Shown here: one piece after another, positions 5,428-54,971 of the stretch
How positions within the stretch are numbered: position 1 is the stretch's first letter
How the letters are laid out: each line of letters begins with the position of its first letter
NCBI RefSeq assembly: GCF_040438925.1
Contig: NZ_CP159258.1
Coordinates: 5,169,001-5,233,000, forward strand
Reading direction: 5' to 3'
Length of the DNA stretch: 64,000 bases
Source of the DNA: Pseudomonas sp. MYb327
GTDB taxonomy: Bacteria; Pseudomonadota; Gammaproteobacteria; Pseudomonadales; Pseudomonadaceae
The notes under the pieces: model-generated
The model's input: the letters and a program-made list of their open reading frames with translations, nothing else
What the model was told of the DNA's origin: nothing
The model's database searches: none
Position numbers and translations under genes: made by a program

Positions 5428-6795
5428 ATGTCTCTCGAAATCGTTATCCTCGCTGCTGGTCAAGGCACGCGTATGCGCTCGGCGTTGCCGAAAGTCCTGC
5501 ACCCGATTGCCGGCAACTCGATGCTTGGCCATGTTATCCACAGCGCCCGGCAACTTAATCCACAGCGCATCCATGTGGTGATAGGTCACGGCGCCGACGC
5601 CGTACGTGAACGTCTGGCCGCTGATGATCTGAATTTCGTCCTTCAGGACAAACAACTCGGCACAGGCCATGCGGTGGCCCAAGCCGTACCTTTCATTAAA
5701 TCCGACACGGTGCTGATCCTTTATGGCGACGTACCGTTGATCGAAGTGGAAACCCTTCAACGTCTGCTCAAGAAGGTCGAGCCTCGGCAATTGGGCTTGC
5801 TCACTGTCGAGCTGGACGATCCAACCGGGTATGGCCGTATCGTGCGCGACGGGGCTGGCAACGTGGTCGCTATCGTCGAACAGAAAGACGCCAGTGAGGC
5901 CGAGCGTGCGATCACCGAAGGCAACACCGGTATTCTGGCCCTGCCTTTCGAAAGTCTTGGCGACTGGATGAGCCGCCTCTCCAACAACAATGCCCAAGGC
6001 GAGTATTACCTCACTGACGTGATTGCCATGGCGGTGAGCGACGGCCTGGTGGTAGCCACCGAGCAACCTCACGATGCAATGGAAGTACAGGGCGCCAATG
6101 ATCGCAAGCAGCTTTCCGAGCTTGAGCGCCACTATCAATTGCGCGCAGGTCGCCGTTTGATGGCTCAGGGCGTGACCCTGCGCGATCCGGCCCGTTTCGA
6201 TGTCCGCGGTGAGGTCACTGTTGGTCGCGACGTGCTGATCGATATCAACGTGATTCTCGAAGGCAAAGTTGTCATTGAAGACGACGTGGTGATTGGTCCG
6301 AACTGCGTGATCAAGGACAGCACCCTGCGTAAAGGTGTGGTGATCAAGGCGAACAGCCATATCGAAGGCGCCATTCTCGGTGAGGGCAGCGATGCCGGTC
6401 CGTTCGCCCGCTTGCGTCCAGGCTCTGTGTTGGAAGCGCGGGCACATGTGGGTAACTTCGTCGAACTGAAAAACGCGCACATGGGCGAAGGCGCCAAGGC
6501 CGGACACCTGGCCTATTTGGGCGATGCCGAAATTGGCGCAAGAACCAACATTGGTGCCGGCACCATCACCTGCAATTACGATGGCGCCAACAAGTGGAAA
6601 ACGGTGCTGGGTGCAGATGTGTTCATCGGTTCGAACAATTCGTTGGTGGCGCCTGTGGATATCCTCGATGGTGCAACCACTGCAGCAGGTTCGACCATCA
6701 CCTCGACTGTGGATAAATCCCAGTTGGCCGTAGGTCGTGCTCGTCAGAAAAACATCGATGGCTGGAAGCGGCCGGAAAAGATCAAGAAGACCTGA
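5428..6795 (+). CDS. glmU: Bifunctional UDP-GlcNAc pyrophosphorylase / GlcN-1-P acetyltransferase
   Basis: Makes UDP-N-acetylglucosamine for peptidoglycan and LPS. The C-terminal domain acetylates glucosamine-1-phosphate with acetyl-CoA and the N-terminal domain then adds UMP from UTP. The 455 residues are the full length. The nucleotidyltransferase signature [19 protein letters not shown] is near residue 8. The left-handed beta-helix of hexapeptide repeats starts near residue 250, and conserved RLRPGS and [10 protein letters not shown] segments lie around residues 330-390. It is in the cytoplasm, with glmR and glmS just downstream supplying the same pathway. Confidence 0.98.
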
Positions 6796-52232: not shown

Positions 52233-52679
52233 TTAAATGGCTTTGCGAAACTGGATGAAACCGGGGCGCTCGGCGATGCGCTCGTAGAGCTGGATCGCGG
52301 TGGCGTTGGTTTCGTGGGTCAACCAGTGAACCTTGCAGCAACCATCGGCCTTGGCCGTGGCGTAGACGAATTCGATCAGCTTGCGGCCAACGCCAGTGCC
52401 ACGGGTTTCGGGCGATACCAACAAGTCTTGCAGGTAGCAGGAGTTTTCGATGCTCCAGTTCGAACGATGGTAAATGAAATGCACCATGCCCACCGCTTTG
52501 CCGTCGGCCCAGGCCAACGCCGCGTGGGTCGGTTCGTTCGGGTCGAGCAGGCGTTGCCAGGTGCTTTGGCTGACGGCGTCCGGCAACTCGGTGTTGTAAA
52601 AGCGCAGGTAGGCCTGCCACAGCGGTAGCCACGCGGCGTGGTCGTCGGCGCTGACCTGGCGGATCTCGATCTGACTCAT
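52233..52679 (-). CDS. GNAT-family N-acetyltransferase
   Basis: 148 residues of a classic GNAT domain: MSQIEIRQVSADDHAAWLPL at the start, LQDLLVSPETRGTGVGRKLI with the acetyl-CoA P-loop (RGTGVG) near residue 90, and VHWLTHETNATAIQLYERIA. Such enzymes acetylate small amines, polyamines or antibiotics; the substrate is not visible. It is the middle gene of a PaiB-GNAT-GNAT cluster, 10 bp after PaiB. PaiA/PaiB pairs in Bacillus also combine an acetyltransferase with PaiB. Confidence 0.88.
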   Translation of the reverse strand: MSQIEIRQVSADDHAAWLPLWQAYLRFYNTELPDAVSQSTWQRLLDPNEPTHAALAWADGKAVGMVHFIYHRSNWSIENSCYLQDLLVSPETRGTGVGRKLIEFVYATAKADGCCKVHWLTHETNATAIQLYERIAERPGFIQFRKAI

Positions 52680-52689
52680 GGTGATTTCC

Positions 52690-53313
52690 TTAGCGCATCA
52701 ATTGGGCGAGGGTTTGGTCGTTGACGTCGGGGCTGGCGGCCAGCCCTTCGCGCACGCCGGCGATGTCGGCGGGGCTACGGTTCTGGCTGAGCTTGCGCTT
52801 GCCTTCGAGACGGTCGATAGGAATGGCGAAACCGACAATGGCCTTGAGCATGCCGTCGATGTAATCGGCGGGGGCATCGGCCACTGACCACGGTTGGGCG
52901 CGGCCAGCTTCATGGCGGTCGGTGAGGGTGCTGACGATGTCGAGCAGCCGCCCGCCATCGCTGAAGGTTTCGGCGCGGCCATAAGCGTGAACGGCGACGT
53001 AGTTCCAGGTGGGCACGACCTTGCCGTGTTCGGCCTTGCTCGGGTAGAAGCCAGGGCTGACGTAGGCGTCGGGACCGGCAAAAATCAACAGGGCTTCGGC
53101 GCCATCTCGCAGGTCTTTCCACTGCGGATTGGCTTTGGCCAGATGCCCGTACAACGTGCCGTTCGAGCCTTGTTCGCAATGCAGCAGCACCGGTACATGA
53201 CTGGCTTGCAGGCCGCTTTCACCGTGGGTCACCAAAATGGCGAGACGGCTGGCGAGGATCAGTTCATGCAGCTGGGACAACTCGTCGATGGCAAAAGCAC
53301 GTGGCGTGTACAT
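52690..53313 (-). CDS. PaiB-like FMN-binding negative transcriptional regulator
   Basis: 207 residues. MYTPRAFAIDELSQLHELIL opens the family pattern, followed by ASHVPVLLHCEQGSNGTLYG and WNYVAVHAYGRAETFSDGG of the FMN-binding split barrel, then a C-terminal helix (AIVGFAIPIDRLEGKRKLSQ). The start at 53313 has AAGGAAAATATCTCC upstream; 13 earlier codons are rejected. It is the first gene of a three-gene unit with two acetyltransferases and is divergent from a MocR regulator that probably controls it. Confidence 0.88.
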   Translation of the reverse strand: MYTPRAFAIDELSQLHELILASRLAILVTHGESGLQASHVPVLLHCEQGSNGTLYGHLAKANPQWKDLRDGAEALLIFAGPDAYVSPGFYPSKAEHGKVVPTWNYVAVHAYGRAETFSDGGRLLDIVSTLTDRHEAGRAQPWSVADAPADYIDGMLKAIVGFAIPIDRLEGKRKLSQNRSPADIAGVREGLAASPDVNDQTLAQLMR

Positions 53314-53355
53314 GGAGATATTTTCCTTGGCGAATGTGTTCATCCTAGGCACGCT

Positions 53356-53398
53356 ATTGGTCTGTTGTAAGAGCCATTAACGACCAATTTCATAGGTC
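53356..53398. promoter_or_regulatory. Candidate MocR operator repeats in the divergent promoter
   Basis: ATTGGTC (53356), GACCAAT (53382, inverted) and ATAGGTC (53392) lie in the 92-bp gap between the PaiB-like and MocR genes. MocR regulators such as GabR and PdxR bind repeated short motifs of this size. The assignment is by position and pattern only. Confidence 0.4.
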
Positions 53399-53405
53399 CA
53401 TTGTC

Positions 53406-54971
53406 ATGACCAGCGAACCATTGTCCTTGTCGTTCAACCCGGCAGGTATCGAGCTTGATCGCCGTCAGGGCTTGAGTCGTCAGCTCTATCAGGCATTGCG
53501 CGTGCGAGTGCTGGATGGACGATTGGCCGGCGGAACCCGTCTGCCGGCCAGCAGGGATTTGGCGGCGGCGCTGGCGATTTCCCGTAACAGTGTGGTGCGC
53601 GCCTACGATCAGCTCTACGCGGAAGGCTTCATCGAGGGACGCGTCGGCGACGGGACTTATGTCGCGCAACTGCCACAAAACGCATTGCCGGTGAAAAAAC
53701 TATCCACAAAAGTATCCACAGGGTTTTCAACAGGCTTACCCACAACCTTATCCACAAATTGCCTGGATTTGCCTGTGGTTTCATCCAGTAAAGTTATCCA
53801 CAGCGTCGCGCTCGCAAGGGTTGAAAAGAACCATTTACCGAGTCCACCGAGCGGTCCGCCACGGGCATTTCGCGTCGGAGTTCCGGCGTTCGATCTGTTT
53901 CCCTTTGAGGTCTGGGCCAAACTGAATGCGGCTTTCTGGCGCAAACCGGATTTGCAGCAGCTGTGTTATGGCGACCCGGCCGGCGATGCGCGTTTGCGCG
54001 GGATGATCGCAGCTTACTTGCGCAGTTCGCGCGGCATGCAGTGCACGGCTGAGCAAATTGTGATCACCAGTGGTGCGCAGCAGGGGATTAGCCTTTGTGC
54101 ACAGTTGTTGCTGGAGCCAGGAGACGGGGTGGCGATCGAGAATCCGGGCTACCGCGCGGCGGGTCATGCGTTCTCCGTCGCAGGTGCGCGACTGCACGGG
54201 GTATCAGTGGATAGCGAAGGCATCGATTGCGGCGAACTGGCGAAACTCAGTGATTGCCGTCTGACTTATGTCACGCCGTCCCATCAGTATCCGACTGGGG
54301 TAGTGATGAGTCTTGCCCGACGTCTGGAATTGCTGGCCTGGGCCGAGCGCGCCCAAGGCTGGATCGTCGAGGATGATTACGATGGCGAATACCGCTACAG
54401 CGGTGCACCGCTGGCACCGTTGGCGGCACTCGATCGTCATGGTCGGGTGCTGTACGTCGGGACCTTCGGCAAGGTCGCTTTTCCGGCGCTGCGTCTGGGT
54501 TATCTGGTGTTGCCAATGGGCCTTGTGGACGCGTTTTCACGGCGTCGCGCAGTGGACGTCCGCCATTCCGAGGTCAGCACCCAAGCGGTGATGGCCGAGT
54601 TCATGGCTGCGGGACATTTCCAGCGGCATATCCGTCGCATGCGCCGTGCGGCGTTGAGTCGGCTTAATGTCCTGCTCAACGGTTGGCCGCAGGATATTCC
54701 CGGCGTCGGCCAGTTACCCACGGTCGCCGCCGGTCTGCACATGACCGTGCCGGTCGAGAGCGTGGCGCGTGAACAGGAACTGATCGAGTTGGCGCGCAGC
54801 GTCGATGTCGAGATCAACGGTTTGAGCAGTTATTGGCTACCGGAGTCCAGCACCCCGATCGATCAGCGTGCCGGACTGGTGCTGGGTTTTGCTGCGGTTC
54901 CCGAGAGCGAGATCGACACGGCGCTGAAGTGCTTGCGGGCAGTGTGGCGTGTTCGCCAAGCGGGCGGATGA
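53406..54971 (+). CDS. MocR-family regulator (GntR helix-turn-helix plus aminotransferase domain)
   Basis: 521 residues. The N-terminal GntR helix-turn-helix (SRQLYQALRVRVLDGRLAGG, PASRDLAAALAISRNSVVRA) is joined through a long linker (residues ~95-155) to a type-I aminotransferase fold. The latter has ITSGAQQGISLCAQLLLEPG, TYVTPSHQYPTGV, VEDDYDGEYRYSG and the PLP Lys in VGTFGKVAFPALRLGYLVLP. PLP acts as effector in this family. The linker is encoded by a 12-bp-periodic run of DnaA boxes (53700-53756) giving tetrapeptides LSTK, VSTG, FSTG, LPTT, LSTN. It is divergent from the PaiB-GNAT genes. Confidence 0.93.
   Translation: MTSEPLSLSFNPAGIELDRRQGLSRQLYQALRVRVLDGRLAGGTRLPASRDLAAALAISRNSVVRAYDQLYAEGFIEGRVGDGTYVAQLPQNALPVKKLSTKVSTGFSTGLPTTLSTNCLDLPVVSSSKVIHSVALARVEKNHLPSPPSGPPRAFRVGVPAFDLFPFEVWAKLNAAFWRKPDLQQLCYGDPAGDARLRGMIAAYLRSSRGMQCTAEQIVITSGAQQGISLCAQLLLEPGDGVAIENPGYRAAGHAFSVAGARLHGVSVDSEGIDCGELAKLSDCRLTYVTPSHQYPTGVVMSLARRLELLAWAERAQGWIVEDDYDGEYRYSGAPLAPLAALDRHGRVLYVGTFGKVAFPALRLGYLVLPMGLVDAFSRRRAVDVRHSEVSTQAVMAEFMAAGHFQRHIRRMRRAALSRLNVLLNGWPQDIPGVGQLPTVAAGLHMTVPVESVAREQELIELARSVDVEINGLSSYWLPESSTPIDQRAGLVLGFAAVPESEIDTALKCLRAVWRVRQAGG
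53700..53802 (+). repeat. Tandem DnaA-box array with 12-bp period
   Basis: Nonamers CTATCCACA (53700), GTATCCACA (53712), TTTTCAACA (53724, weak), TTACCCACA (53736) and TTATCCACA (53748, perfect) follow each other every 12 bp in one orientation, and another perfect TTATCCACA lies at 53794. All are inside the MocR linker coding sequence. The DnaA consensus is TTATCCACA. Confidence 0.7.

Follow-up and report, generated by a model that had tools for sequence, protein, structure and literature searches.

A conserved row of DnaA boxes inside a mocR gene near dnaA: a candidate DnaA-binding locus of Pseudomonas

Why does a gene for a MocR-type regulator carry a regular row of DnaA boxes, and does this row serve the gene or the chromosome? 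The gene in question lies in a 64,000-nucleotide stretch of Pseudomonas sp. MYb327 (positions 5169001–5233000 of a 6.15-Mb chromosome; hereafter the window), on the forward strand at 53406..54971 of the window. Its 521-residue product, an open reading frame with Pfam and NCBIfam matches, consists of a GntR winged helix (PF00392) and a class I/II aminotransferase domain (PF00155), in agreement with the preliminary description of the host as a MocR-type gene. The top NCBIfam match is rhizopine_MocR, at 418 bits under its cut-off of 650, followed by PdxR, at 415.8 bits over its cut-off of 320. The divergent neighbour on the reverse strand encodes an FMN-binding domain protein (FMN_bind_2; 52690..53352, open reading frame and Pfam match) and is flanked by a gene for a GNAT acetyltransferase on the same strand (52233..52679, open reading frame and domain match). 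The array is found about 300 bp inside mocR, in the linker that joins the winged helix to the aminotransferase domain.

The core of the array (53700..53756, forward strand) contains five DnaA boxes with a period of 12 bp, namely, a 9-bp box and a 3-bp spacer. Box 1 (CTATCCACA, 53700..53708), box 2 (GTATCCACA, 53712..53720) and box 4 (TTACCCACA, 53736..53744), identified from the sequence and by pattern scan, have one mismatch each. Box 3 (TTTTCAACA, 53724..53732), read from the sequence, has two mismatches and is frequently the weakest box among the orthologues, and box 5 (TTATCCACA, 53748..53756; pattern scan) is perfect. A spacer of 37 bp (53757..53793), recognised by orthologue comparison and alignment, leads to a second perfect TTATCCACA, box 6 (53794..53802), which starts exactly 46 bp after the start of box 5. 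All six boxes are on the forward strand. Sequence and pattern scan thus confirm what had been described earlier, five same-strand boxes at exact 12-bp steps with a sixth at 53794, and the same holds for the mismatch counts in the row of five (one perfect, three with one mismatch, one with two) and for the linker tetrapeptides LSTK, VSTG, FSTG, LPTT and LSTN. Box 6 is read in a different frame from boxes 1–5, encoding V-I-H versus L-S-T. Five boxes at 12 bp can also be viewed as four overlapping 'double boxes' with 3-bp spacing. On the chromosome, dnaA starts at 5157765 and the array at 5222700, 65 kb apart; gene order and boxes suggest that oriC adjoins dnaA, and, to the extent that it was tested, the earlier placement of the array near oriC holds.

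The array is not a product of chance. Scored as five boxes in 12-bp register, it reaches 40 of 45, compared with 28 at the best unrelated place in the 300 kb around dnaA and peaks of 24–26 in six simulated 300-kb sequences (first-order Markov). Ranked within the same 300 kb, it is the densest box cluster, with five boxes (≤1 mismatch) in 103 bp; the cluster adjoining dnaA has four such boxes in 84 bp. The window as a whole contains 37 boxes (≤1 mismatch), against an expectation of 24.7 ± 4.9; this modest excess was attained in 2 of 100 shuffles, and what is notable is the clustering, not the number of boxes across the window. Tandem Repeats Finder reports only two weak two-copy pieces. Genome-wide, exact TTATCCACA occurs in 138 copies versus 14 of a reversed-letter control. 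These copies are crowded around dnaA (~5120000–5225000), with 37 in the surrounding 300 kb and zero in 60 kb sampled at 2.0–2.2 Mb.

Comparison of orthologues shows an array that is kept by selection as DNA, not as peptide. It was found in 47 of the 49 orthologues examined, always in the same codon phase. Within the five boxes of these 47 genes, threonine is encoded by ACA in 211 of 216 cases, versus 6.9% elsewhere in the same genes, and leucine by TTA in 118 of 175, versus 2.4% elsewhere. In five genes tested, 200,000 synonymous recodings per gene yielded no score as high as the observed five-box score. Box 5 is perfect in 46 of the 47 array-bearing orthologues, and box 6 (0–1 mismatch) stands exactly at +46 in 41, the other six being without it; in 41 of the 47 the 37-bp spacer has a constant length while its sequence drifts. 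Box 6 alone is weaker evidence, because it is also spelled by 2,162 of 200,000 (~1%) synonymous recodings of the window gene. An alignment (A1) and a sequence-only profile (R1) were built from 41 of the 47 arrays, the six without box 6 being omitted; in the alignment, the box positions are almost invariant and the spacer is variable. The preliminary description had proposed an alignment of orthologous linkers as a check, and in this alignment the boxes are kept while the spacers and flanking residues drift.

Two peculiarities of individual mocR loci were also observed. One locus (L045, genome G010) has a palindromic insertion, presumably REP-like, in the linker directly upstream of an intact array. 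In four others (L038, L109, L110 and L137 of G034, G116, G182 and G326), mocR is split between frames or stopped, and the array is wholly or partly kept; these genes represent either true decay or sequencing errors.

The array also persists without the gene, in three genomes (G043, G285 and G037). In G043 and G285, which are alike and may reflect a single event, the array (score 40) is intergenic, located between genes for a GNAT acetyltransferase and a sulphur-transport (YeeE/YedE-like) protein. In G037, it lies between scraps of mocR, recognised by eye, with four boxes still in register. The distances to dnaA are 53, 53 and 103 kb, respectively, and the relative orientation is the usual one. 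In the mocR-less loci L103 and L106, the array still has as its neighbour a GNAT protein like that of the window. Such gene-free arrays are a minority, since 13 of the 16 mocR-less genomes are also without the array; five of the 16 have a completeness below 90%.

The opposite state, the gene without the array, is found in G165, G300 and G310. These genomes have a full-length mocR match, 83–85% identical, with a GC-rich linker, and no box with ≤1 mismatch is left in their mocR stretches. Absence of the boxes from close orthologues had been named in the preliminary description as the result that would speak against the DnaA idea; it is indeed seen at this level of identity, in three genomes of one clade. 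The three genes cluster together inside the array-bearing part of the tree (support 0.80), which makes one later loss the simplest account. In G300, the one single-contig genome of the three, dnaA is at the chromosome start and mocR with its neighbours is 2.32 Mb away; no replacement array was found within 200 kb of dnaA in this genome, where the best score is 28. No dnaA was found in G165 C3:1-200000 or in G310 C14:1-260000, searched apart from ~25 kb by mocR (C14:35425-60000). The link between loss and relocation concerns one clade, with the distance measured in one of its three genomes, and it may stand for a lost function or for a coincidence. Twelve more distant array-less orthologues have no box, and their linkers are shorter.

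The genomic position of the array was analyzed in 75 single-contig genomes with both mocR and dnaA, 69 of them array-bearing. Sixty-six of the 69 have mocR on the same side of dnaA, at a distance of 9–158 kb and transcribed away from it. Two more (G161 and G326) have mocR mirrored to the other side of dnaA, at 133 and 157 kb and again pointing away, so that the gene is within ~160 kb of dnaA in 68 of 69. The counter-example is G029, in which an intact array lies 1.33 Mb from dnaA; thus, the dependence on position is not absolute. For 59 of the 75 genomes, length was rounded to 0.1 Mb, which gives an error of up to ±50 kb for distances across the record end. Among the six genomes without the array, mocR is far from dnaA in G041 and G200, and within 170 kb in G114, G149, G174 and G238. 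Proximity to dnaA hence does not force the presence of the array, but the array is almost always near dnaA. Part of this association is accounted for by shared synteny, the counts being uncorrected for phylogeny. The set consists of single-contig genomes with mocR and does not include the multi-contig G023, G052 and G057 (~50, 69 and 88 kb) or the mocR-less G012, G014, G100 and G302. Taken across genomes, comparison shows a locus of constant orientation, almost always close to dnaA and, in the three genomes described above, free of mocR.

Of 298 genomes of the genus, 266 gave a match to profile R1 at E≤0.01 and 242 still did so at E≤1e-6 (counted by eye and recounted); mocR is present in 282 at E≤1e-90. 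With the stricter threshold for the array, 239 genomes have both array and gene, three the array alone, 43 the gene alone and 13 neither. The 43 genomes with mocR but no R1 match at E≤1e-6, together with the four array-less mocR genes near dnaA, indicate that the genus as a whole can do without the element. Some of the weak R1 matches correspond to the stretch upstream of dnaA, others to unrelated box pairs. In the wider family (198 genomes), strong matches are confined to the genus of the window, except for one genome, G459. A pattern scan of named genomes yielded at least 119 loci; among the loci listed, 115 are in mocR genes and four are unrelated. Of these 115 mocR loci, 114 come from Pseudomonas by their record labels (species such as P. 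putida, P. fluorescens and P. chlororaphis), and the remaining one comes from a metagenome-assembled genome labelled Paucimonas. In 90 of the 115, box 6 is perfect and stands at +46. In a tree of 72 mocR proteins (linker excluded), rooted by our choice on 12 array-less genes, all array-bearing genes fall into one group, which suggests a single gain of the array.

The exception in the wider family, G459, belongs to another genus and carries mocR with the array (L091) on a 51-kb contig, possibly through transfer or as a misplaced contig. Similar DNA on plasmids was uninformative: all 60 records are partial, with at most 67% of the gene covered in the best 20 of the 60, and 58 of the 60 are 60–80% identical.

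What, then, is the array for? We consider it, with a probability of about 60%, a candidate cis-acting chromosomal DnaA-binding locus that occupies a permissive mocR linker and would sequester or inactivate DnaA after initiation; as such, it is probably a control element for starting DNA replication. The preliminary description had suggested that coding DNA near oriC might conceal a locus for binding or titrating DnaA, and this fits the comparative tests, inasmuch as the boxes stay while the spacers drift, mocR-free arrays occur near dnaA and the array is absent from a clade with mocR, which in G300, the member with a measured distance, lies 2.3 Mb from dnaA. The TTATCCACA box is identical to the high-affinity DnaA box described for P. 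putida (PMC4285127). DnaA of E. coli is reported to bind in vivo mainly to pairs of boxes 2–3 bp apart, and mutation of either box disrupts binding (PMC11317965). Because the boxes of the array share this double-box spacing, DnaA would be expected to load cooperatively on the five same-direction boxes, and it may bridge the 37-bp spacer to reach box 6. A locus 50–160 kb from oriC would be duplicated early after initiation, doubling a strong DnaA sink at once, and this sink would hold or inactivate DnaA away from oriC and dampen re-initiation. Its position alone makes us rate sequestration or datA-like inactivation above DARS-like reactivation. In E. coli, datA and DARS are reported to lose their effect under strong transcription (PMC5010248), and this would count against a locus of the kind within a gene, unless mocR is weakly transcribed.

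Among known systems, the array is best likened in its working to datA or to DnaA-box clusters, by analogy and not as a proven member of either. The E. coli datA locus is a five-box cluster, and the array counts six boxes, including one with two mismatches. datA lowers initiation and its position matters, according to PMC5010248, PMC5295017 and PMC4585315, and it has an absolute requirement for boxes 2 and 3 and the intervening IHF site (PMC4585315). No exact IHF consensus (WATCAANNNNTTR) is found in 53351–54100; one site with one mismatch overlaps box 5, and a weak site is possible. Furthermore, datA is non-coding, whereas the array is inside mocR here, although not in G043 and G285 (and only among mocR scraps in G037), and the layout of datA differs from boxes in tandem at 12 bp. 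Since the array has neither an exact IHF site nor non-coding status, we do not call it datA.

The DnaA-box clusters of Bacillus subtilis likewise lie outside the origin, and the array, 65 kb from dnaA, resembles them as a cluster near oriC. Removal of all six clusters led to early initiation, read as sensitivity to free DnaA in the review PMC5295017, and the same review also describes the clusters as without a significant role in initiation control. The B. subtilis clusters differ from the array in being six and redundant, with a strong phenotype only when all are gone. The array is one regular 12-bp same-strand row in coding sequence, in another phylum. DARS1 and DARS2 of E. coli share with it closely spaced boxes and a conserved distance from oriC, as described in PMC11317965, PMC5010248 and PMC4585315. 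They differ in their three-box core, in the requirement of DARS2 for IHF and Fis, and in reactivating DnaA-ADP; the boxes of the array have another layout, without an exact IHF consensus. The closest likeness in spacing is to the E. coli double DnaA box (Stringer 2024, PMC11317965), same-direction boxes 3 bp apart that are reported as the preferred in vivo target, with five boxes in a row in the array versus two. Finally, boxes in E. coli and Salmonella are enriched around oriC, and the crowding seen in E. coli is argued to favour titration (Olivi 2025, PMC12371093). That proposal is about how densely boxes are distributed in a statistical sense and not about a single conserved array, and the main text of the paper does not mention Pseudomonas.

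Among the other explanations, DnaA on the array could block or pause transcription of mocR and so tie the regulator to the cell cycle, as implied by the DnaA-responsive control element considered in the preliminary description. The position of the boxes within the gene, the co-occurrence of mocR in 239 of the 242 array-bearing genomes and the known role of E. coli DnaA as a gene regulator (PMC11317965) are consistent with this possibility. However, arrays exist without the gene in three genomes, which makes control of mocR improbable; in addition, the close orthologues in G165, G300 and G310 keep mocR without the array, and most of the DnaA-bound regions tabulated for E. coli are upstream of genes, not internal (PMC11317965). 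We likewise give a low probability to a DARS-like role, in which the array would promote ATP-for-ADP exchange on DnaA and stimulate initiation. DARS loci too have double boxes (PMC11317965) and are position-sensitive (PMC5010248), but E. coli DARS2 is reported to require IHF and Fis sites (PMC4585315) and 53351–54100 contains no exact IHF consensus, and an early-duplicated, origin-adjacent site would suit a sink better.

It is very unlikely that a protein other than DnaA reads a similar motif in the array, even though the role of DnaA here is deduced from sequence. The motif is the Pseudomonas DnaA box (PMC4285127), its excess of exact copies over the reversed-letter control is crowded near dnaA, and weaker R1 matches are found directly upstream of dnaA in G014, G041, G174, G200 and G302. 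One more such match, in G479 (L097 1521–1553), precedes a ribonucleotide reductase gene: three DnaA-like boxes with a 12-bp period, in a layout resembling the mocR array, are found upstream of the gene for the large subunit (ATP-cone and Ribonuc_red_lgN domains); nrdA belongs to the DnaA targets of E. coli (PMC11317965). Plain 12-bp repeat expansion or selection for an LST peptide, the alternative offered in the preliminary description, can be dismissed: a period of 12 does preserve the reading frame and the linker tolerates repeats, but the synonymous sites are constrained to the box, the recoding test refutes it, box 6 is in another frame, the boxes are alike and in register across the genus while the spacers vary, three orthologues (G165, G300 and G310) keep the gene without repeats and the array outlives mocR in three genomes.

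Returning to a locus that sequesters or inactivates DnaA near the origin, a more elaborate version can be offered as a tentative and rather doubtful proposal. The array could be a dedicated replication-control locus of Pseudomonas set in an ordinary gene, a counterpart of datA, in which selection acts on the distance from oriC, a DnaA filament forms on the five-box ruler after initiation, and transcription of mocR serves as an off-switch, possibly coupling a metabolic signal read by MocR to initiation. The switch is a speculation based on the loss of datA and DARS activity under strong transcription. No earlier account of such a locus in Pseudomonas was found in the literature searched, which largely leaves out subscription papers and in which the DnaA control loci outside oriC come from E. 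coli and B. subtilis. If the array indeed controls replication, it would show that such elements can be concealed within genes, out of reach of annotation; this one, embedded in a coding linker and gene-free in a few genomes, has matches in most of the sampled species of a large genus. The absence of the array from the clade whose single-contig member G300 has mocR 2.3 Mb from dnaA raises the directly testable question of whether a DnaA sink functions only close to the origin.

Rows and pairs of DnaA boxes were also observed elsewhere. Unrelated rows with a 12-bp period include five perfect boxes in the uncultured bacterium RUG10674 (L152 ~5446–5502) and six boxes in Acetobacterium tundrae (L146 ~2690–2746). 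In G008, whose mocR is without the array, three boxes in 12-bp register lie beside a class-III aminotransferase gene (L122 1511–1555). A recurring pair of boxes, 46 bp apart, follows a phage-integrase-family gene in G046 (L339 1956–2010) and G140 (L340 1942–1996) and adds matches to the two-box scan. Finally, a double box, TTATCAACAgagTTATCCACA, is located at the start of dprA, beside a polypeptide deformylase gene (L343 2029–2049; G015:C1:28828-28848), and its core is found again in several other genomes.
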